A stretch of DNA of 64,000 bases from assembly GCF_010435965.1 (NCBI RefSeq), contig NZ_JAAGAA010000001.1, positions 248,001-312,000 on the forward strand, read 5' to 3'. The notes under the pieces were generated by a model. That model made no database searches. It had not been told where the DNA came from and worked only from the letters and a program-made list of their open reading frames with translations. Position 1 is the first letter of the stretch. Each line of letters opens with the position of its first letter. Source of the stretch: Crenobacter caeni. GTDB lineage: Bacteria > Pseudomonadota > Gammaproteobacteria > Burkholderiales > Chromobacteriaceae. This document shows positions 12,455 through 63,614 of the stretch, piece after piece. The position numbers and the translations under genes were made by a program.

Positions 12455-12487
12455 GAAAAACCCTCCGCAGGCGAACCTGGGAGGGTT
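12455..12487 (-). terminator. Terminator of the tRNA-Lys operon
   Basis: On the minus strand a long stem (AACCCTCC-CAGG, loop TTCG, CCTG-GGAGGGTT, with one bulged base) is followed by TTTC. It begins 5 bases after the CCA end of the last tRNA gene, so it should end the tRNA transcript. Confidence 0.85.
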
Positions 12488-12492
12488 GATCT

Positions 12493-12568
12493 TGGTGGGT
12501 CGTGCGGGATTCGAACCTGCGACCAACGGATTAAAAGTCCGCTGCTCTACCAGCTGAGCTAACGACCC
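12493..12568 (-). tRNA. tRNA-Lys (anticodon TTT), copy 4 of 4 in transcription order
   Basis: Read on the minus strand: GGGTCGT acceptor arm, D-arm AGCTCAGCTGGTAGAGC, anticodon loop CTTTTAA giving anticodon TTT, T-arm with GGTTCGAATCC, and encoded CCA. It is 76 nt including CCA and identical to the three upstream copies. Confidence 0.98.
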
Positions 12569-12590
12569 GAAAACGGGCGCCGGTGGTATG

Positions 12591-12666
12591 TGGTGGGTCG
12601 TGCGGGATTCGAACCTGCGACCAACGGATTAAAAGTCCGCTGCTCTACCAGCTGAGCTAACGACCC
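12591..12666 (-). tRNA. tRNA-Lys (anticodon TTT), copy 3 of 4
   Basis: Identical 76-nt sequence with encoded CCA. A 22-nt spacer separates it from the last copy. Confidence 0.98.
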
Positions 12667-12687
12667 CGGGATACCGGGCTTGCATTG

Positions 12688-12763
12688 TGGTGGGTCGTGC
12701 GGGATTCGAACCTGCGACCAACGGATTAAAAGTCCGCTGCTCTACCAGCTGAGCTAACGACCC
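12688..12763 (-). tRNA. tRNA-Lys (anticodon TTT), copy 2 of 4
   Basis: Identical 76-nt sequence with encoded CCA. A 21-nt spacer separates it from copy 3; the spacer contains a short GGTATCC/CGGGATACC-like self-complementary stretch. Confidence 0.98.
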
Positions 12764-12779
12764 CCGTGCCGGGTCTTGG

Positions 12780-12855
12780 TGGTGGGTCGTGCGGGATTCG
12801 AACCTGCGACCAACGGATTAAAAGTCCGCTGCTCTACCAGCTGAGCTAACGACCC
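12780..12855 (-). tRNA. tRNA-Lys (anticodon TTT), copy 1 of 4
   Basis: First gene of the tandem tRNA-Lys array on the minus strand, 76 nt with encoded CCA, 16-nt spacer to copy 2. The strong promoter lies about 65 bases upstream. Confidence 0.98.
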
Positions 12856-12921
12856 CCAAGGCATGGGCTTCTTGTCCCGAATCGGCTAGTTGCATGCCAA
12901 TCCAGATCAAGAGAGATCGAG

Positions 12922-48096: not shown

Positions 48097-48101
48097 GCCA
48101 A

Positions 48102-48290
48102 GTAGGGTAGGTTAGCCCCGAAGGGGCGTAACCCACCAATGGGGCGTCTCTAGTGGTGGGTTACGGCCTGCGGCCTAACCCACCCTACCTCTGAGCGCGG
48201 CAAGCAAAGCGGCGCGAAGGAATGAGTGGCGTAACCCACCACCGGCAGCCACCTTGGTGGGTTACGGCCTGAGGCCTAATCCACCCTACC
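48102..48290. repeat. Dispersed palindromic repeat family A, composite copy
   Basis: Core units resemble GTAGGGTGGGTTAG...CGTAACCCACC. Unit 1 (48102-48138) and unit 2 (48153-48189) are inverted relative to each other around about 14 bases, giving a hairpin with arms of about 36 bp. A further partial inverted pair spans 48229-48290. Related copies are at 59362-59394 and 61606-61786. This fills most of the 254-base gap between the NYN gene and ruvB. Confidence 0.85.
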
Positions 48291-48350
48291 TCACGATCTC
48301 ACGACCTCGCTCACAGCAGCCGGCACCGGTGCCGGCGCGGCAGGAAGCAG

Positions 48351-50844: not shown

Positions 50845-52395
50845 ATGGAAGAAGTGATTCAACAGGCGGCGCCGCAGGCGCCGCGTGGCCTGGTCGACCG
50901 CATGCTCGATACCATCGAGCGCGTCGGCAACCGCCTGCCCGATCCGGTGACGCTGTTCATCGGCCTGACCCTGCTGGTGTTCGTCGGCAGTTACTTTGCC
51001 GCCGAGGCCGGCCTGTCCGCGCTCAAGCCCGGCAGCGGCGAAACCATCGTGCCGGTGTCGCTGATGAGCGCCGACGCGATCCGCGCGTGGATCGTCGACG
51101 CGCCCAGGCATTTCGCGCTGTTCCCGCCGCTGGCGACCGTGCTGGTCGCCATGCTCGGCGTCGGCGTCGCCGAGCGCAGCGGCCTGCTCGCCGCCTTGCT
51201 CGGCCGGCTGGTTGCCTGCTCGCCGCGCGTGCTGTTGACCCCGATCATCGTGTTCATCGGCGTGCTCTCCAACGTCGCGGCCGACGTCGGCTACGTGGTG
51301 GTGGTGCCGCTCTCCGCGATGCTGTTCGCCGCGTCCGGCCGCCACCCGATCGCGGGTCTCGCCGCCGCGTTCGCCGGCGTCTCCGGCGGCTTCTCGGCCA
51401 ACATCCTGCTCTCCACGCTCGATCCGATGCTCGCCGGCATTTCCGAAGCGGCCGCGCATATCGTCGACCCGGCGTACACGGTGAGCGCGGTGGCCAACTA
51501 CACCTTCATGGCCGCCTCCACCGTCACCGTCGCGCTGCTGGCGTGGTACGTGACCGACCGCGTGATCGAACCGCGCCTGCCGGCGTGGCGCGACCAGGGC
51601 GGCGAAGAAATGCAGCGCTGCTCGGCCTCCGAGGCGCGCGGCATGCGCTTTGCCGGCATCGCCTTCGCGGTGCTGCTGGGCCTGATCCTGTGGGCGACGC
51701 TGCCGGAAGGCGCGCTGCTGCGCAACCCCGAGACCGGCGGCTTCGTGCCTTCGCCCTTGATTAACGGCGTGGTGATCCTGATCATGCTGGTGTTCCTGAT
51801 CCCGGGCATCGCCTACGGCGTCGGCACCCGCACCTACAAGAGTGACCGCGACGTCGCCCGCGCCATGTCGCAGAGCATGTCGGACATGGGCTACTATCTG
51901 GTGCTGGCGTTTTTCGCCGCGCAGTTCATCGCGCTGTTCGCCGACAGCAAGCTCGGCCTGATCCTCGCGATCAACGGCGCCGAGGCGTTGCAGGCGCTGG
52001 GCCTGTCCGGCCTGCCGCTTCTGCTGCTGTTCGTGCTGCTGACCGGCTTCATCAACCTGTTCATCGGCTCGGCGTCGGCCAAGTGGGCGCTGCTCGCGCC
52101 CATCTTCGTGCCGATGCTGATGCTGACTGGCTTCTCGCCGGAGGCGACCCAGCTCGCGTACCGCATCGGCGACTCGGTGACCAACATCATCACCCCGCTG
52201 ATGGTGTACTTCCCGATGGTGCTGGTGATGGCCAAGCGTTACCTGCCCGAATATGGCCTGGGTAACCTGATCGCGCTGATGCTGCCCTACTCGGTGGTGT
52301 TCATGGTCGGCTGGAGCGTGATGCTTGCGGCGTGGCTGGCGTTGGGCCTGCCGATCGGCCCGGGCGTCTCGACTTTCCTGCCGGTCGCCGGCTGA
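50845..52395 (+). CDS. abgT: AbgT/MtrF-family transporter
   Basis: A 516-residue inner-membrane transporter of the AbgT family, whose members import p-aminobenzoyl-glutamate or export sulfonamides (Neisseria MtrF, Alcanivorax YdaH). About nine to ten membrane segments. Family blocks are DRMLDTIERVGNRLPDPVTLF, VLSNVAADVGYVVVVPLSAMLF, GFSANILLSTLDPMLAGISE, INLFIGSASAKWALLAPIFVPM, and RIGDSVTNIITPLMVYFPMVL. ATG 50845 has AAGGGA upstream. No mtrCDE efflux genes are adjacent. Confidence 0.93.
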   Translation: MEEVIQQAAPQAPRGLVDRMLDTIERVGNRLPDPVTLFIGLTLLVFVGSYFAAEAGLSALKPGSGETIVPVSLMSADAIRAWIVDAPRHFALFPPLATVLVAMLGVGVAERSGLLAALLGRLVACSPRVLLTPIIVFIGVLSNVAADVGYVVVVPLSAMLFAASGRHPIAGLAAAFAGVSGGFSANILLSTLDPMLAGISEAAAHIVDPAYTVSAVANYTFMAASTVTVALLAWYVTDRVIEPRLPAWRDQGGEEMQRCSASEARGMRFAGIAFAVLLGLILWATLPEGALLRNPETGGFVPSPLINGVVILIMLVFLIPGIAYGVGTRTYKSDRDVARAMSQSMSDMGYYLVLAFFAAQFIALFADSKLGLILAINGAEALQALGLSGLPLLLLFVLLTGFINLFIGSASAKWALLAPIFVPMLMLTGFSPEATQLAYRIGDSVTNIITPLMVYFPMVLVMAKRYLPEYGLGNLIALMLPYSVVFMVGWSVMLAAWLALGLPIGPGVSTFLPVAG

Positions 52396-52410
52396 CCGGC
52401 CCTCTCCCTG

Positions 52411-52507
52411 CCCTCACCACCAACCCCTCTCCCGCAAGCGGGCGAGGGGAGTGCGAGATCCTTCTCCCGCTTGCGGGAGAAGGTGGCGCGCAGCGCCGGA
52501 TGAGGGC
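52411..52507 (+). repeat. Dispersed repeat family B, copy 1
   Basis: Contains CCCTCACC..., a hairpin CTCTCCCGC-AA-GCGGGCGAG, a second hairpin CCTTCTCCCGC-TT-GCGGGAGAAGG, then GGCGCGCAGCGCC-GGATGAGGG. It is in the gap after abgT and ends about 16 bases from the stop codon of the DUF559 gene. Confidence 0.9.
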
Positions 52508-52522
52508 CGCCGGACGAGGGCG

Positions 52523-52852
52523 CTATGCCTGCAGTTGCCGCAGGATATCGGCGAGCACGTCATCGGTGCGCGTCAGGATGTCGTGGTTCCAGTAATGCAG
52601 CACGCGCAGGCCGCAAGCCTGCAAAGCTAGGTCTCGGTGCAAATCGGCTGCGTCGCCGTGCTGGCTGCCGTCCGCCTCGACGGCGAGCCTTTTTTCGAGA
52701 CAGATGAAGTCGATGATGTAGCCGGCCACCGGGTACTGGCGGCGGAACTTGTGGCCGCCCAGCCTGCGGTCACGCAGGTGTAGCCATAGCAGGCGTTCGG
52801 CGTCGGTCTGCTGGGCACGCAGGGCGCGCGCCAGTGGGGTCAGGCGGGACAT
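52523..52852 (-). CDS. DUF559 endonuclease-domain protein
   Basis: A 109-residue protein of the DUF559 (Vsr/restriction-endonuclease-like) family. The start LTPLARALRAQQTDAERLLWLHLRDRRLGGHKFRRQYPVAGYIIDFICLEKRLAVEADGSQH is shown in parts by QTDAERLLWLHLRDRRLGG, FRRQYPVAGYIIDFIC and LAVEADGSQH, which contain the D-ExE/Q-like residues expected for a PD-(D/E)XK-type fold. ATG 52852 fits the family start; an in-frame ATG 9 codons upstream is possible. Both sides of the gene are directly bounded by same-orientation copies of repeat family B. The biological role is unknown. Confidence 0.88.
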   Translation of the reverse strand: MSRLTPLARALRAQQTDAERLLWLHLRDRRLGGHKFRRQYPVAGYIIDFICLEKRLAVEADGSQHGDAADLHRDLALQACGLRVLHYWNHDILTRTDDVLADILRQLQA

Positions 52853-52901
52853 GGTTTGGGCCGTCGTGGACAACTGCATTGACCGTAGCAGCTGGCGTGC
52901 C

Positions 52902-53010
52902 GGCCCTCACCTCGCCCTCACCCCCGGCCCCTCTCCCGCAAGCGGGCGAGGGGAGGGCCGTGATCCTTCTCCCTTCGGGAGAAGGTGGCGCGTAGCGCCG
53001 GATGAGGGCT
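52902..53010 (+). repeat. Dispersed repeat family B, copy 2
   Basis: Same arrangement and orientation as copy 1: CCCTCACC units, hairpin CTCTCCCGC-AA-GCGGGCGAG, hairpin CTTCTCCC-TT-CGGGAGAAG, then GGCGCGTAGCGCC-GGATGAGGG. Its last bases touch the stop codon of the downstream (leftward) binding-protein gene at 53009-53011. Confidence 0.9.
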
Positions 53011-58154: not shown

Positions 58155-58410
58155 CGTGCGCTCCCTGCGGATGGATGGCGGCATCTTAGCATGCCGCCGC
58201 CGGCCGTCTGCGCCCGCCGGCCAATGTTGATCCAGCGCAAGTGCGGTGTAGGTTTCCCGCCACAAGTCGCCGGTCATGCGGTAGCATCCTATAAATGGCG
58301 TTTGCATTTAACGGGGGGTTTCTGCCAGTGTTGCTGACAGATGCTGCGCAAGGCACCAACGTCATGGCAAAATGCCGGCACACGAAGCAGACGCTTGGCA
58401 TAATTTGCGT
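58155..58410. other. bioA/pilin divergent intergenic region
   Basis: 256 bases with no gene. It contains a sequence with the spacing of a sigma-54 site, TGGCAA-N5-CGGCA at 58365-58380, but the -12 element is poor. No clear sigma-70 promoter toward the pilin gene was found. Confidence 0.35.
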
Positions 58411-58845
58411 ATGCAAAAAGGTTACACTCTGATCGAGCTGATGATCGCGGTCGCCATCATCGGCATCCTTGCCGCGGTCGCCATCGTCGCGTATGTGGAC
58501 TACAGCCGGCGCGCGCAGGTCGCGGCCGCGCTGTTCGAGACCGAGCCGATGCGCCGTGCGATCGACGTACAGCACGCGACGGGTGAGGGCTGGCCACAGG
58601 GCAACGCGTCGGCAGGCTTCGCCGGCTACCAGAGCCACACCATCGCGCAGGTCGCGGTGCAGCCAGCTGCCGGCGCGCGGCCCATGACGCTGGAAGTGAC
58701 GCTTGCGGCGCCCTGGGTCGCCAGCGGCGCGAAGCTCGAGCTGTACCCGGACAGCGCGAGCGGCGGCTACAACTGGCGCTGCAGCAGCGACCGGGCCAAG
58801 AATCTGTTCGCCTTGCTGCCGGCCAGTTGCCGGGACGGCGGTTAG
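58411..58845 (+). CDS. Type IV pilin-like protein (minor pilin)
   Basis: A 144-residue prepilin. A short leader MQKG is followed by [24 protein letters not shown]: Tyr replaces the usual Phe at position +1, and Glu5 is present. The C-terminal disulfide pair is suggested by WRCSS...LPASC, forming a typical D-region loop. It has no obvious Shine-Dalgarno. It is followed 58 bases later by the major-pilin-like gene. It may be a minor or alternative pilin. Confidence 0.87.
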
Positions 58846-58903
58846 GCAAGTAGTACCCTTTGAAAAACGGCAGCGGTTCTTATTCACCTGGGAGGTTAGC
58901 AAC

Positions 58904-59335
58904 ATGAAACGTGTACAACAGGGCTTTACCCTGATCGAACTGATGATCGTGGTGGCGATCATCGGTATTCTCGCGGCAGTCGCGATTCCGGCGTATCAGA
59001 ACTACACGGCTAAAGCGAAAATTTCGGCATCGCTCGCTGAGCTGGCTGCAGCTAAAACACCTATCGAAGTAGCCCTTAATGAAGGGACAGATGTCACTGA
59101 TGCCACTTCTTTGGCAGCTGTGGGTGTTGCATCTGCTACTGGCAATTGCAACATTTCCATCACTAAAGCAAATAATGCCTACACGCTGAAGTGCGATGTG
59201 CAAAAGGCGCCGACGTCTTTAGGTACTCCTAAGGTCGCTCTGACTAGGACTGCTTCTGGTGTGTGGAATTGCTCCACTACGGTCACTGCCGATTATTCGC
59301 CTAAGGGTTGTACCGCAGGTGCGACCATTAACTAA
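58904..59335 (+). CDS. pilA: Major type IV pilin (PilA/PilE-like)
   Basis: A 143-residue prepilin: leader MKRVQQG, then [32 protein letters not shown], the canonical pilin helix with Glu5. The globular part has four cysteines: GNCNISI, LKCDVQ, WNCSTT and KGCTAG. The last 280 bases are clearly AT-richer than neighbouring genes and use codons such as AAA, CCT, GCT, TCT, suggesting an imported allele. Good Shine-Dalgarno GGGAGG. The name pilA versus pilE cannot be decided. Confidence 0.93.
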
Positions 59336-59361
59336 TGATTTAAAATGAAACAAGGTAGTGC

Positions 59362-59394
59362 GTAGGGTGGATTAGCCGCCACGCGGCGTAACCC
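59362..59394 (+). repeat. Dispersed repeat family A, single unit
   Basis: GTAGGGTGGATTAGCC-GCCACGC-GGCGTAACCC: one unit of the family seen at 48102-48290 and 61606-61786, between pilA and its terminator. Confidence 0.8.
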
Positions 59395-59410
59395 TTCGTC
59401 TATGTTGATC

Positions 59411-59436
59411 AAGACACCACCTTCGGGTGGTGTCTT
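59411..59436 (+). terminator. Terminator after the pilin genes
   Basis: AAGACACCACC-TTCG-GGTGGTGTCTT, a perfect 11-bp stem with a TTCG loop. There is little T-run (TTACC), but it lies 75 bases after pilA and 27 before pglL. Confidence 0.8.
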
Positions 59437-59462
59437 ACCATCCAGCCCTTCCGGTTTTTCCC

Positions 59463-61466
59463 ATGAACCGAATGTCGTCCGTCCTAGCTGCGCCGCTGGC
59501 CGCCGGGCCTGTGCTTCCCTTGTCCGCGCTGCCGGTTGCCCTTCTCGCCATCCTGCCGTTCCTGTTGTGGTTGCGCTTCGCACCGGATGGCGACCTGCTC
59601 GCCAACGCGCTGGCACTGCTGCTGGCGGTTGCCCTGGTACTCGCCTGCCTGCCGCGGATGGGGGGCGAACTGGTACTGCGCCCGGGTTTGCTTGCGGCGG
59701 CGGCGCTGACGCTGGCTGCCTTGCCGGCGCTCGCCGGCGCGCCTTACCCGGGCGTCGCACTCGGGCAACTGGCGACGGTGTGGCTGGCGGCGCTCGCCGC
59801 GCAGGCGGTGGCGACCCTGCCGCGCGGCGCGGTGCTCGCTGCCTTGGCTTGGGGGCTGTTCGCCGGCGGTGTGCTGCAACTGTTGATCGGCGCCGCGCAG
59901 GTGTTCCAGCTGGCGCAGCCGTGGGGCTTGTGGTTTGTGGTGTCGGACGGACTGGGCACGCTGTTCGGCAACCTTGCCCAGCGCAACCAGTATGCCAACT
60001 ACCTGACGCTCGCGCTGGTATCGCTTTGCTGGCTCGTCGCGCGCCGGCGCCTGCCGGCGTGGCTGTTCGTATTGCTGGCAGCGCTGTTTGCGTTGTTCCT
60101 GGCGTGGTCGGCGTCGCGGCTGGTGATCGTCTTCGCGCTGGGGTTGAGCTTGCTGGCGGCGGGGCTGTATCTGGCCGGCCGCCGCGCCCTCACCCCCGCC
60201 CTCACCCCCGGCCCCTCTCCCGCCAGTGGGAGAGGGGAGGGCATCGTGGAGTATTTGCCGGCAGATCCTTCTACCGCTGGCGGGAGTGGGGCGTGCAGGG
60301 TGGATCGTTTACCGGCAGGAAGCGGGCCGACAGTTCCTTCTCCCGCAGGCGGGAGAAGGTGGCGCGCAGCGCCGGATGAGGGCTCGGCGCTCACCCGCAT
60401 GGCGGCCGCGCTCGGCTTCGCCATCGTACTGATCGCGCTGTGCCAGTTGTTTACCAGCCAGATCAACGCGGGGCTGTCCCTGCTCGGCCTGCCGGTCGAC
60501 CTGCAAAGCGGCGCCGGGCGCTTCATGGATGGCGGCTTTGGCGCGCGCCGCTGGATCGAGTGGCAGAAGGCGTGGCAGGTATTCGTCGCCCACCCGCTGA
60601 CCGGTGTCGGCCTCGGCGGTTACGCCGCGCAGTCGGTCGTGCTGGAGCCTGCGTTCGCCGGCGAGTGGTCCGAGAGCTGGCTGTTCACCCACTGCCACAG
60701 CATCGTGCTGCAGCTGCTCGCCGAAACCGGCCTCACCGGCACGCTGGCGGTGGCGGTGGCGCTCATGTGGGCGTTTTTGCCGTGGTTCCGGCGGCAGAAC
60801 ATCGGCGCCGACGCGCTGCTGGTGCTCGGCCTCGCGCTGGTGCTGCTCGGGCACAGCCTGCTCGAGTACCCGCTGTGGTACGCGAGCTTCCTGATGGTGT
60901 TCGCGGTGCTGGTCGGCGTCAGCCCCGCCGCCGGCTGGGCGTTGCCGGTGCGCGCGTCCTTGCGCCGCGTCGGCGCGCTGCTGCTGGTGCTGGTCATCGC
61001 CGGCCAGACGCTCATCGGCGTGACGCATTACTTCGACTGGGTGAAGTGGGTGGTGCCGAGCAGCGACGCGCGCGAGAACAAGGCGCGCATCGAGGCGCTG
61101 CTTGTGCAGGGCGCGAACCCGTCGTGGAGCTACGACGCCGACCAGTTGCTGTCGAACTACCTGGGCGGCGACGCCGCGCACCTCATGCTCAAGCAGCCGC
61201 TGTTCGAGCGCCTCGCCGCATACCGGCCGTATCCGGCGACGCTGACCAAGCTTGCCATGCTGCGCGCGCACGCGGGCGACGCAGCGGGGGCCCGCGACGC
61301 GCTGCGCCGCGCGGTCGCCGCTTACCCGGCGACGGTACCGGGCATCGCGGAGACCCTCGCGCAGGAAAAAGCCCCAGCGCTGGCACCCCTGCAGGCGATG
61401 GCCGCGCGCGCGCATGAGGCCTACCAGCAGCACGGCCCACTCGCTGCCGCACGCACGGTGCGCTGA
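59463..61466 (+). CDS. pglL: PglL/PilO-type protein O-oligosaccharyltransferase (with in-frame repeat insertion)
   Basis: A 667-residue polytopic membrane enzyme that transfers glycans from lipid carriers to pilin or other exported proteins. Wzy_C/PglL features: LFGNLAQRNQYANYLTLALV (about 165-183), WIEWQKAWQVFVAHPLTGVGLGGY, HCHSIVLQLLAETGLTGTLAV (periplasmic catalytic loop with His), and LLEYPLWYASFLMV. Residues about 242-306 are encoded by a copy of repeat family B, giving an alien loop (ALTPALTPGPSPASGRGEG, PAGGRRWRAAPDEGS) between two helices; the frame stays open. The neighbouring pilins are natural substrates. A paralogue follows. Confidence 0.9.
   Translation: MNRMSSVLAAPLAAGPVLPLSALPVALLAILPFLLWLRFAPDGDLLANALALLLAVALVLACLPRMGGELVLRPGLLAAAALTLAALPALAGAPYPGVALGQLATVWLAALAAQAVATLPRGAVLAALAWGLFAGGVLQLLIGAAQVFQLAQPWGLWFVVSDGLGTLFGNLAQRNQYANYLTLALVSLCWLVARRRLPAWLFVLLAALFALFLAWSASRLVIVFALGLSLLAAGLYLAGRRALTPALTPGPSPASGRGEGIVEYLPADPSTAGGSGACRVDRLPAGSGPTVPSPAGGRRWRAAPDEGSALTRMAAALGFAIVLIALCQLFTSQINAGLSLLGLPVDLQSGAGRFMDGGFGARRWIEWQKAWQVFVAHPLTGVGLGGYAAQSVVLEPAFAGEWSESWLFTHCHSIVLQLLAETGLTGTLAVAVALMWAFLPWFRRQNIGADALLVLGLALVLLGHSLLEYPLWYASFLMVFAVLVGVSPAAGWALPVRASLRRVGALLLVLVIAGQTLIGVTHYFDWVKWVVPSSDARENKARIEALLVQGANPSWSYDADQLLSNYLGGDAAHLMLKQPLFERLAAYRPYPATLTKLAMLRAHAGDAAGARDALRRAVAAYPATVPGIAETLAQEKAPALAPLQAMAARAHEAYQQHGPLAAARTVR
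60187..60382 (+). repeat. Dispersed repeat family B, copy 3, inside pglL
   Basis: CCCTCACCCCC twice, hairpin CTCTCCCGCC-GGGAGAGGGG, a middle segment with CCTTCTACCGC-GGCGGGAG, hairpin CCTTCTCCCGC-AG-GCGGGAGAAGG, then GGCGCGCAGCGCC-GGATGAGGG. Orientation is the same as copies 1 and 2. It lies wholly within the pglL reading frame. Confidence 0.92.
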
Positions 61467-61508
61467 CGGACGTTGTCTATCGGTGTGCCGTTGCCGGCGC
61501 CGTCGTTG

Positions 61509-61600
61509 GATGCCTTCTCCCGCCAGCGGGAGAAGGTGGCGCGCAGCGCCGGATGAGGGCGCAGCCCCGCCACCCTCACCCCCGGCCCCTCTGCTGCCAG
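61509..61600 (+). repeat. Dispersed repeat family B, copy 4, rearranged
   Basis: The right half (CCTTCTCCCGCC-AGCGGGAGAAGG-TGGCGCGCAGCGCC-GGATGAGGG) comes first, then the left half (CACCCTCACCCCCGGCCCCTCT). The order is permuted relative to copies 1-3. Confidence 0.85.
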
Positions 61601-61605
61601 CAAGG

Positions 61606-61786
61606 GGGGGTTAGCCTCTAGGAGGCGTAACCCACCACCACACAAAGCCATTTTGCGGGATGGCGTTTTAATCGCGGCTTTGCCCGCCGCGTCTAATGGT
61701 GGGTTACACAGCCCATTCCCGCGCGCCGCTTCGCTTGCCGTGCCTATCGGTGGGTTACGCCGACGTTGTCGGCTAACCCACCCTAC
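61606..61786. repeat. Dispersed repeat family A, composite copy
   Basis: Unit GGGGTTAGCC-TCTAGGA-GGCGTAACCCACCACC (61606-61640), an inverted partial unit TGGTGGGTTACA (61697-61708), and a full inverted unit CGGTGGGTTACGCCGACGTT-GTCGGCTAACCCACCCTAC (61748-61786). Large inverted repeats result, as at 48102-48290. Confidence 0.85.
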
Positions 61787-61841
61787 ACGGCCACATGGGT
61801 ACGTTACAATATCCGCCTTGTCTGATTTCCCCTTGCACAAC

Positions 61842-63614
61842 ATGCAATCAAGATCCCTGCTGGCAGGCTTGGCGCTGGCCCTGTGGGCGGCCGTCGCCGC
61901 CGTGCCGTTTCTGTCGCGCATCCATTACCTGCCGCTGCCGCAATGGTTCGGCGAGATGAACGTGGTGTGGCTGACGCACGCCGCCCTGTTGCCGCTGGCG
62001 CTGCGTGACGGTTTGTCGGCCTTTGGCGCGCTGCCGCGCACCACGCTGTGGCTATTGTTGCTGGCGCTCGTGTGGGCTGTGCAGCCCCTGTGGGTGCCAC
62101 TGGCCTTTCCGGGGCTGAACGCGGCCACCGCCTGGGCGTTCGTGCTGCTTGCGCTGCTTGGCCTGCTCACGCAGCGGCTGCGCGAGATCTACGGCGACGA
62201 GGCGGTGTACCTGCGCTTCGCGCAGGCGCTGCTGGTCGGCACCGTGCTGCAGAGCTTGATCGGCTTCGCGCAGGTGACCGGCCTCGCGCAGGTGATGGGC
62301 GGCGTGCTGTTTTACGATGCGGCGCACCCGACCAGCAATGTGTTCGGCCACCTCGGCCAGCGCAACCAGTACGCGCACTACCTGGCGTGGGGGGGCGCCG
62401 CAGCGGCCTACCTGTGGGCGCGGCGCAGGCTGGGTACCTGCTGGGCGGTGGCGGCGGTGGCGTGGCTCGCGCTCTCCATGGCGTGGGCGGGGTCGCGCAC
62501 GGTGCTGCTCTACGCGGCGGCGTTCCTCGCGCTGGCGCTCATCTGGGCGCTGCGGGTGCGCGACGCGGAGGGGCGGCGCTTTGCGGGCGCCTTGGCGGCG
62601 GCGGCGTTTGCCGTGATCGCGTTGCAGTTTGCGCTGCCGTGGGTGAACCAGCTGTTCGCCGGCGGCGCCGTGGAGAGTGGGGTCGAACGCATCGCGGCTG
62701 CGGGCGGCGAGGGGATGAACTCGCGCCGTTTCGCCGAGTGGCACAAGGCGTGGCTGGTGTTCGGCGATTACCCGCTGTTCGGCGCCGGCTGGTCGCAGTT
62801 TGCCGCGCACAGCGTCGCCCTGCAGATGCGGCCCGAGTTTGCCGAGGCAGCGTTCAATAGCGGGCTGTTTGCCAACAGCCACAACCTGGTGCTGCAGCTA
62901 TTGGCCGAGACCGGCGTGGTCGGTACCGGCGCGGTGCTGCTGGGCTTCGCTTGGCTCATGTGGCCGTTCTTTGGCCGAGGCATGGCGGCGCGCCACCTAC
63001 TGCCGGTGGCGATGCTGGCGGTCACGCTGATCCACAGCCAGGTCGAGTATCCGCTGTGGTATCTGTACTTTCCGGCGGTGGCGGTGGTCGCGCTGTCGCT
63101 GTCTCCCGCGCCTTCGCTGCGCGCGCCGCTTGTTGTAAAGCTGGGGCTAGCGGGGCTGATGCTTATGCTTGTCTGGTTGTCGGTCGCAGCGTGGCCGCGT
63201 TACCGCGAGCTGGTCAGCCTCTACACGCCGCCCTACAACGCCGAGCTGCGCGCCAGGAACCAGACGCGGCTCGCCGCGATCGTCGAAAACGAACCGATGT
63301 TCGCCTTCCACGCGCTGAACACGCTGGACAACTACCTGCGGGCCGACCGCGAGCAGCTGCAGCAAAAGCGCGCGTGGATGACGCGGCTTGCCGCGTTTCG
63401 CCCCTACCCGGACGTACTGCTGAAGAAGGCGCAACTCGAGGCACTGGCGGGCGACACGGCGCAGGCGCGGCAGACACTGGCGTACGCGCTCGCGTCGTTC
63501 CCGACCTACGCGCCGCGCTTCATGGCGACACTCGCCGGCAGCGAGCCCGCGTGGACGGTGCTGTACGAGGATGCCAGCGCGGCGCGCGCGCGGCTGCCCG
63601 AGCGTTACCGCTAA
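61842..63614 (+). CDS. pglL: Second PglL/Wzy-type oligosaccharyltransferase
   Basis: A 590-residue paralogue of the protein at 59463, with the same order: VFGHLGQRNQYAHYLAWGG, RRFAEWHKAWLVFGDYPLFGAGWSQF, NSHNLVLQLLAETGVVGTGAVL, SQVEYPLWYLYFPAVAVVAL, and a periplasmic C-terminal tail with Tyr/Arg-rich helices. It lacks the repeat-derived loop; its equivalent cytoplasmic segment is short (RVRDAEGRRFAG). It may glycosylate pilins or join O-antigen. ATG 61842 was chosen over upstream in-frame non-ATG starts. Confidence 0.88.
   Translation: MQSRSLLAGLALALWAAVAAVPFLSRIHYLPLPQWFGEMNVVWLTHAALLPLALRDGLSAFGALPRTTLWLLLLALVWAVQPLWVPLAFPGLNAATAWAFVLLALLGLLTQRLREIYGDEAVYLRFAQALLVGTVLQSLIGFAQVTGLAQVMGGVLFYDAAHPTSNVFGHLGQRNQYAHYLAWGGAAAAYLWARRRLGTCWAVAAVAWLALSMAWAGSRTVLLYAAAFLALALIWALRVRDAEGRRFAGALAAAAFAVIALQFALPWVNQLFAGGAVESGVERIAAAGGEGMNSRRFAEWHKAWLVFGDYPLFGAGWSQFAAHSVALQMRPEFAEAAFNSGLFANSHNLVLQLLAETGVVGTGAVLLGFAWLMWPFFGRGMAARHLLPVAMLAVTLIHSQVEYPLWYLYFPAVAVVALSLSPAPSLRAPLVVKLGLAGLMLMLVWLSVAAWPRYRELVSLYTPPYNAELRARNQTRLAAIVENEPMFAFHALNTLDNYLRADREQLQQKRAWMTRLAAFRPYPDVLLKKAQLEALAGDTAQARQTLAYALASFPTYAPRFMATLAGSEPAWTVLYEDASAARARLPERYR

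Follow-up and report, generated by a model that had tools for sequence, protein, structure and literature searches.

Results

The DNA analysed here, which we call the window, is a 64,000-nucleotide stretch of Crenobacter caeni (positions 248,001 to 312,000 of NZ_JAAGAA010000001.1; part of contig C11 in a genome of 3.40 Mb, G000). Towards its end two paralogous oligosaccharyltransferase genes, pglL1 and pglL2, follow one another, and pglL1 contains, in frame, a palindromic repeat of a family (family B) that also occurs between genes (Table 1). The host gene is a single open frame of 667 aa, from an ATG at 59463 to a stop at 61464-61466, with matches to PF11846 (82.6 bits), PF04932 (48.6) and PF15864 (29.6); a profile of 31 relatives hits 9rmk, a solved oligosaccharyltransferase, at E 2.7e-94 and also finds 7tpg. 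That an intergenic-type family B repeat is translated inside pglL had been proposed from the letters of the window (the original prediction) and was borne out at the proposed place, and sequence comparison confirmed that the adjacent paralogue is free of the loop. The prediction had described one full repeat of about 65 residues; the in-frame block stands, but it is 69 codons long and comprises two complete hairpin units and the remains of a third.

The full units, left (L) and right (R), have tips, CCCTCACCC and GGATGAGGG or GGGTGAGGG, that are complementary at 8-9 of 9 positions, and units occur singly too. Aligned without gaps over 52 nt, the right-unit stretch at 60332-60383 agrees with the intergenic copies at 52456, 61509 and 52958 in 49/52, 47/52 and 39/52 positions, and the insert as a whole matches 15 other places in the genome at E <1e-4 (16 rows, one of which is the opposite strand of one place). 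Folded as RNA, it reaches -117.3 kcal/mol (z = -4.4), and none of 200 shuffled sequences was equally stable. An Rfam search of 59300-62000 returned nothing at the insert, its one sub-threshold match being radC RNA at 19.7 bits (gathering score 40). The insert sequence is stop-free in three of six frames; as the repeat holds few stops and its length fits the frame, it is translated as a loop.

Table 1. Features of pglL1, its insert and the related repeat copies. Positions are those of the window unless a locus is given.
Feature	Position	Strand	Basis
pglL1, O-oligosaccharyltransferase (Wzy_C, Wzy_C_2, PglL_A), insert host	59463..61466	+	Pfam
In-frame insert, 69 codons, residues 242-310	60186..60392	+	alignment to insert-free orthologues
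12-nt duplicated tip of left unit	60187..60198	+	sequence; G000/G001 alignment
Left unit L: CCCTCACCCC tail and CCCTCTCCC..GGGAGAGGG hairpin, translated LTPGPSPASGRGEG	60199..60242	+	
Degenerate middle hairpin, resembling a decayed right unit	about 60264..60307	+	inspection only
Right unit R: CCTTCTCCC..GGGAGAAGG hairpin, GGCGC..GCGCC hairpin, GGATGAGGG tail, translated PSPAGGRRWRAAPDEG	60336..60382	+	
Family B copy in the pglL1-pglL2 intergenic region (R followed by degraded L)	61509..61610	+	
pglL2, paralogue without insert	61842..63614	+	
Family B copy (L+R), one side of DUF559 gene	52387..52507	+	
DUF559 gene (118 aa) of the EDxHD/Vsr-like endonuclease family, the proposed mobiliser	52523..52879	-	PF04480, 123 bits
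Family B copy (L+R), other side of DUF559 gene	52891..53009	+	
S9 (prolyl oligopeptidase family) peptidase half-copies, reading frame as in PglL	L031 (G000:C11:213113), L099, L084, L155		

The nearest named relatives of C. caeni are Crenobacter intestini (NZ_STGJ01000002.1; G001), Craterilacuibacter sinensis (G002) and Craterilacuibacter sp. RT1T (G003), and these four genomes, two of Crenobacter and two of Craterilacuibacter, make up one GTDB genus. All four carry the insert in pglL, at the identical position and with the identical order of units, whereas it is found in 0/26 orthologues from other genera, in which a few residues join both helices. A PglL match is present in all 57/57 other-genus genomes of the family; the 26 PglL sequences, like the 26 S9 peptidase sequences used below, are the best-scoring 26 of these 57 rather than a random draw. 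The loop measures 69 codons in C. caeni, 67 in C. intestini, 49 in Cl. sinensis and 90 in RT1T, with an uninterrupted gene in all four; the 41 additional codons of RT1T relative to Cl. sinensis include an extra left-type segment. Presence in 4/4 genus genomes and absence from 26/26 others argue that the insert entered before Crenobacter and Craterilacuibacter split, and so, as judged from these alignments, that it is ancestral to the genus and not recent. No outgroup PglL among the 26 had the same loop without similarity to the repeat. The original prediction had further taken the pglL copy as proof that the repeat is mobile, a claim that finds no support for the present day, as the copy is common to all four species. 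Two other observations are evidence for mobility: a repeat-bounded block containing a DUF559 gene is present or absent between sister species, and the pglL copy has switched subfamily.

An AlphaFold2 model of PglL built from 31 sequences (mean predicted local distance difference test score, pLDDT, 86.8; 463/667 residues >=90) keeps the helices on either side of the insert, 220-243 and 306-329, in register, as had been predicted, with the predicted fold intact. Between them residues 257-268 and 270-296 fall below pLDDT 50, and the insert, a hydrophilic loop, is modelled as disordered. The catalytic Wzy_C loop (about 330-413) comes after the next helix, which places it in the model on the opposite side of the membrane from the insert. 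Glycan transfer is periplasmic, and the insert therefore probably faces the cytoplasm, the side named in the original prediction. A fold search with the model returned nothing meaningful (best E 0.05, TM-score about 0.1), so the topology rests on the model and on the argument from the periplasmic catalytic loop; the state of the host protein is read from its open frame, its conserved domains and this model.

PglL is not the sole host. An S9 peptidase (Peptidase_S9, 148.6 bits) has a left half-unit in frame, read as LTPxPSPxGRG, in 4/4 genus genomes and in 0/26 other-genus sequences, and this copy, absent from 26/26 others, upholds the predicted ability of the repeat to create protein loops. 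Seven of the 20 exact left-unit matches in the four genus genomes lie within pglL or the S9 peptidase. Further afield, mfd of Xanthomonas sacchari (NZ_CP010410; L185:1501-1620) has an R and then an L unit in frame, read as VPSPTGRRWREAPDEG and LTPTPLPGGEG. In an Azospirillum record a copy lies in urea carboxylase, and no stop interrupts the gene before its end. Genome G225 of the class has a copy inside a long open reading frame (ORF), which we take to encode an HrpB-like helicase; of the 12 right-unit places counted across four other genomes of the class, this was the single one lying well inside a recognisable long ORF. The reading frame is shared by pglL, S9 peptidase and mfd, and the repeat lies in the opposite orientation in the hrpB-like and urea carboxylase genes. 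Of these five hosts, comparison with orthologues covers pglL and the S9 peptidase.

The repeat is patchily distributed. The exact right-unit pattern occurs in 5/369 genomes of the class, a set that includes drafts and incomplete genomes (the reversed pattern occurs in none of the genomes listed), and the left-unit pattern in 9/61 genomes of the family (reversed pattern, one genome). Similar right units are present in 171 plasmid records, 143 of them from Rhizobium or Sinorhizobium, and the phage collection gave no match to the repeat. The patchy occurrence in class and family is as expected if the element is mobile or transferred. A match of about 35 nt was found in 2/5426 E. coli genomes, which is no test of box C; the right units may resemble rhizobial RIME and E. 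coli box C elements.

Copies of family B also bound a DUF559 gene in the window. The region from 52396 to 53010, which holds this block, is replaced in C. intestini by about 70 bp, and in RT1T a DUF559 gene is found at a different locus, again bounded by family B copies. A DUF559 profile built from 40 sequences has matches in 3hrl (E 5.9e-42) and in 3r3p, a mobile-intron protein (E 2.8e-4). Likewise, the predicted fold (pLDDT 87.5) matches 3hrl and the homing endonuclease I-Bth0305I below E 0.001 (3r3p: Foldseek E 2.5e-4, TMt 0.73). Matches to Vsr (E 0.13-0.17) and TnsA (E about 1) are weaker and rank below some mitoribosomal proteins and PvuRts1I. E28, D57, E68, D70, H74 and D79 are invariant in 40/40 aligned DUF559 sequences. 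Taken together, these comparisons suggest that DUF559 is a relative of I-Bth0305I and a predicted endonuclease. In the available excerpt of PMC9403480 a Thermosynechococcus DUF559 gene is called a member of the EDxHD homing family, and in that of PMC12907096 a part in T:G mismatch repair is proposed for the Caulobacter DUF559 protein VsrA, a role that involves no mobility.

Among the 61 family genomes, 12 have stand-alone full-domain DUF559 genes, and in 9/12 a perfect hairpin of the repeat type lies <=600 bp away; of the other three, one (G057) has exact left-unit matches beside DUF559, another has its locus truncated by the end of a contig, and one (G028) has none. At class level DUF559 is present at E <=1e-20 in 73/369 genomes, and we surveyed one locus each from 60 of the 72 other class genomes, leaving out the 12 lowest-scoring; by their nearest genes these 60 loci fall into 49 groups and so are mostly separate places. 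Two patterns were counted: a core, TCTCCC-N2-10-GGGAGA, and a Y-R palindrome, with a pyrimidine 5' arm and a purine 3' arm of >=9 each. Core density was 1.47/kb <=600 bp from DUF559 (102 in 69,578 bases) and 0.07/kb farther away (49 in 709,081). The core lay near DUF559 in 38/60 regions, against a mean of 2.0/60 and a maximum of 7 for random windows of equal size in the same regions (1000 draws; all 60 usable). The observed count varies with the definition of near, being 38 for a distance of 600 bp from the domain, 35 when the 600 bp are taken ahead of the domain or past the stop of the ORF, and 33 at 300 bp. Within 300 bp, 33/60 DUF559 genes had the core as compared with 26/381 other ORFs (p 9e-18), and 50/60 had any perfect hairpin with arms >=9 as compared with 78/381 (p 3e-21), these controls being simple longest-ORF calls of >=100 codons rather than annotated genes.

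The hairpins near DUF559 also share a polarity. An all-pyrimidine 5' arm was found in 111/145 near hairpins (all-purine, 0) and in 54/160 far ones (all-purine, one). Where the core is missing the hairpins are often variants of it, for example CCCTCCCCC..GGGGGAGGG or CCCCTCTTT..AAAGAGGGG, and the tip motif CCCTCAYCC lies <=600 bp from DUF559 in 27/60 regions, with 29 occurrences in 577,923 far bases. We discarded the reversed motif as a control, as it is contained in the same palindromes (itself enriched, 44 near and 21 far). Y-R palindromes occur <=600 bp from DUF559 in 45/60 regions, as opposed to 0/29 loci of the REP-associated tyrosine transposase (RAYT; REP, repetitive extragenic palindrome). 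At the level of whole genomes, 4/5 right-unit genomes have DUF559 versus 69/364 others (p 0.006). Outside the class, 8/10 loci have a Y-R palindrome (arms >=8) <=600 bp from DUF559: two in Azospirillum, two in Sinorhizobium (plasmids), one in Shinella, one in Sphingomonas and two in Deinococcus. We chose these ten by hand among the 30 listed entries out of 41 plasmid-collection records with a DUF559 match, so 8/10 is not a rate. Most likely, the EDxHD/Vsr-like DUF559 enzyme drives the spread of the repeat class to which family B belongs, in the fashion of a homing endonuclease. A link between DUF559 and palindromes was not found in the open-access literature searched, a body that most subscription papers and preprints lie outside.

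The same association could arise the other way round, with DUF559 genes homing into palindromic repeats that are the invaded target and not the cargo. The kinship of DUF559 with a mobile-intron endonuclease fits this, as do the repeats that stand without DUF559 in C. intestini and Cl. sinensis, and REPs are described as known targets of insertion sequences in the part of PMC1525189 available. Three features of the loci speak against it. Repeat-bounded DUF559 genes stand at two different loci in C. caeni and RT1T; the DUF559-free site of Cl. sinensis that corresponds to the RT1T locus has no perfect hairpin with arms >=8 in the 280 bp examined; and at several loci one flank of the gene has two or more units. 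We regard homing into repeats as unlikely, albeit the most serious competitor to DUF559-driven spread.

At locus L276 (G409) two right-type units, inverted relative to each other, enclose a DUF559 gene, which makes a compact candidate for a mobile unit.

How the pglL copy changes is seen best in comparisons within the two species pairs. Between Cl. sinensis and RT1T, synonymous divergence (dS) is 0.084 in the insert and 0.628 in the rest of pglL (about 3/38 versus 199/467 sites; Fisher p 8e-6), with similar nonsynonymous divergence (dN; 0.078 and 0.098). The two Crenobacter species give a dS of 0.161 for the insert and 0.264 for the rest (p 0.23, not significant), with dN at 0.081 and 0.051. 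Low dS together with ordinary dN suggests that what is conserved in the insert is its DNA rather than its peptide. Between the Crenobacter inserts, mismatches amount to 4/95 positions of the hairpin units and 13/91 of the spacers (p 0.021), clustering in the spacer that contains the degenerate middle hairpin; the left unit has 1 mismatch/44 nt, and the C. intestini insert is 6 bp shorter, exactly at the duplicated left tip.

Right units also fall into subfamilies. Counted by pattern in the available sequence of the four genus genomes, 24/24 matches read either T/A/A (16) or C/G/G (8) at three linked sites, and none is mixed. The pglL right unit is T/A/A in Crenobacter and C/G/G in Craterilacuibacter, with compensated hairpin stems between the two. 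One orthologous copy is C/G/G in both C. intestini (L095) and Cl. sinensis (L076); the gene beside this unswitched copy is presumably pgk. Both the switch of subfamily and the low dS of the insert suggest replacement from elsewhere, the pglL hairpin having been exchanged with, or rewritten from, other repeat copies.

Separate insertions of different units into one loop, in place of conversion, would also give each clade its own insert sequence, and the extra left-type segment of RT1T could be read in this way; a position and a left-to-right unit order common to all four genomes make this rather unlikely. Selection on the structure of the mRNA or DNA, for instance for a translational pause during membrane insertion, would account for the low synonymous divergence between Cl. 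sinensis and RT1T, for the stable fold (z -4.4) and for stems compensated between clades. It fits poorly with a clade change that moves three linked sites, one of them outside the stem, to a subfamily that already exists, and with a loop that ranges from 49 to 90 codons and that 26 outgroup orthologues do without; we consider it improbable.

The C. caeni genome also holds a complete RAYT gene (NF047646, 211 bits; G000:C11:22916-23446; L114:4801-5797), which is outside the window. As a control we took the best-scoring 30 RAYT loci of the class and removed this genome's own (L327), leaving 29; gene positions were taken from locus length and are off near contig ends (at least in L326, L333 and L341). 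In the windows examined, 0/29 had the core or a Y-R palindrome, and 5/29 had any hairpin. That this RAYT moves family B is very improbable: a full enzyme is present, with family B copies about 1.7 kb away, but another gene (which we take to be pgk) separates them, the repeats on either side of RAYT are of the GTAG type (GTAGGGTGGGTTAG..) rather than family B, none of the L and R units listed for family B has the GTAG tag, and neither core nor Y-R palindrome accompanies RAYT in the class. The genome thus holds two separate palindrome systems, GTAG repeats with RAYT, and family B.

Repeats of the GGGTGGGTTAG..CTAACCCACC type, like those that flank RAYT, lie in the window at 48097-48292, 59357-59398 and 61596-61637; the one at 61596 abuts a family B copy, and the one at 59357 comes after a pilin-like ORF. 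A Y1_Tnp match on another contig (G000:C5) was rejected as a RAYT, its ORF being mostly IS66 transposase. This ORF (L001, G000:C5:86475) joins the C-terminus of an IS66-type transposase to a fragment of a Y1_Tnp domain.

Discussion

We consider it highly probable that a palindrome inserted once into pglL of the ancestor of the genus and has since persisted as a tolerated loop, that its DNA has been exchanged with that of other copies, and that DUF559 has driven the spread of the family. A palindrome of a widespread family, made of two hairpin units with pyrimidine 5' and purine 3' arms and CCCTCAYCC/GGRTGAGGG tips, landed in the short loop between two membrane helices of the ancestral protein. 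Selection on the downstream catalytic part would keep the frame, while the loop peptide itself would be weakly constrained, perhaps neutral, and the hairpin DNA would stay sharp through exchange with, or rewriting from, other copies. The DUF559 enzyme may cut or nick at or near the extruded palindrome or a matching target, and repair from a repeat-bearing copy would then bring the palindrome, and sometimes the gene too, to the cut site, and would homogenise existing copies. Insertions would be lost from most genes and retained in loops with a compatible frame, as in PglL.

A broader proposal is that DUF559 proteins serve as dedicated mobility enzymes for Y-R palindromes, a large class that crosses phyla, and form with them a homing-endonuclease counterpart to RAYT and REP, with in-frame loops in conserved proteins as by-products; each DUF559 would travel between copies of its cognate palindrome and rewrite or seed others by cutting and repair. 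We put this forward tentatively, giving it a little less than even weight.

Several observations weigh against the reading of ancestral insertion, inter-copy exchange and DUF559-driven spread. No transposition, excision or cleavage was observed. The C. intestini site holds a terminator-like hairpin and is not a clean empty site, and no clear target-site duplication was seen at either of the two DUF559 presence/absence sites. C. intestini and Cl. sinensis carry repeats but no DUF559 match at E 0.001, so that spread there would have to be past or in trans. Within the survey, 15/60 DUF559 regions are without a Y-R palindrome (arms >=9) <=600 bp away, both cyanobacterial loci outside the class have none with arms >=8, and one class genome (G226) has the right unit and no DUF559 match. 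As for exchange between copies, the low synonymous divergence of the insert is significant in just one of two species pairs, and 3/14 right units outside the genus are T/G/G, which breaks the two-subfamily rule. Compensated hairpin arms could, moreover, arise by template switching inside the hairpin, without exchange between copies, a process that would not explain the third linked site, which lies outside the stem.

In-frame palindromes as such are already known, as the available parts of four sources describe (PMC3733652, PMC10969869, PMC2229807, PMC6649704). In the excerpts of three of these, Rickettsia palindromic elements (RPE; the elements of Ogata 2000, 2002) lie in frame in unrelated conserved proteins, and the host protein tolerates them (PMC10969869, PMC2229807, PMC3733652). 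Family B is likewise both intergenic and in frame in unrelated proteins, with inserts absent outside the lineage (pglL, S9 peptidase); the hosts differ, and the likeness is by second-hand description and not by sequence. Intragenic GTAG/CGTC REPs are, in the excerpt of PMC3733652 (Di Nocera and colleagues, 2013), short palindromes inside ORFs of several species, many of them in genes for replication and repair. The mfd copy of family B is also in a repair gene, but unlike those REPs, family B units are without GTAG, and at none of the 29 RAYT loci examined in the class do they stand next to that gene. The pglL copy is thus of a known kind (RPE, intragenic REPs), extended to a membrane glycosyltransferase and to another repeat family. 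RIME elements of rhizobia are named in the available part of PMC2573895.

The arrangement around DUF559 recalls the REPtron, likewise a small nuclease gene flanked by dispersed palindrome copies, though the enzyme here is DUF559/EDxHD and not a tyrosine transposase. The closer relative of the enzyme is I-Bth0305I (3r3p), which shares the fold and the invariant E, D, H and D, the match of the DUF559 model to Vsr (1vsr, 1cw0) being weak. An intron or intein was not seen here, in an analysis not aimed at finding one. If true, the link would give a mobiliser to repeats without RAYT and a biological role to a family still labelled as of unknown function. A protein of 118 residues and a hairpin of about 45 bp would allow a direct test of the pairing.

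Other features of the window

Directly upstream of pglL1, at 58372-59335, are two type IV pilin-like ORFs, which we take, by recognition rather than a family search, to be pilin-like and plausible substrates of the oligosaccharyltransferase. Four near-identical tRNA-like stretches stand in tandem, 92-98 bp apart, at 12481-12856.

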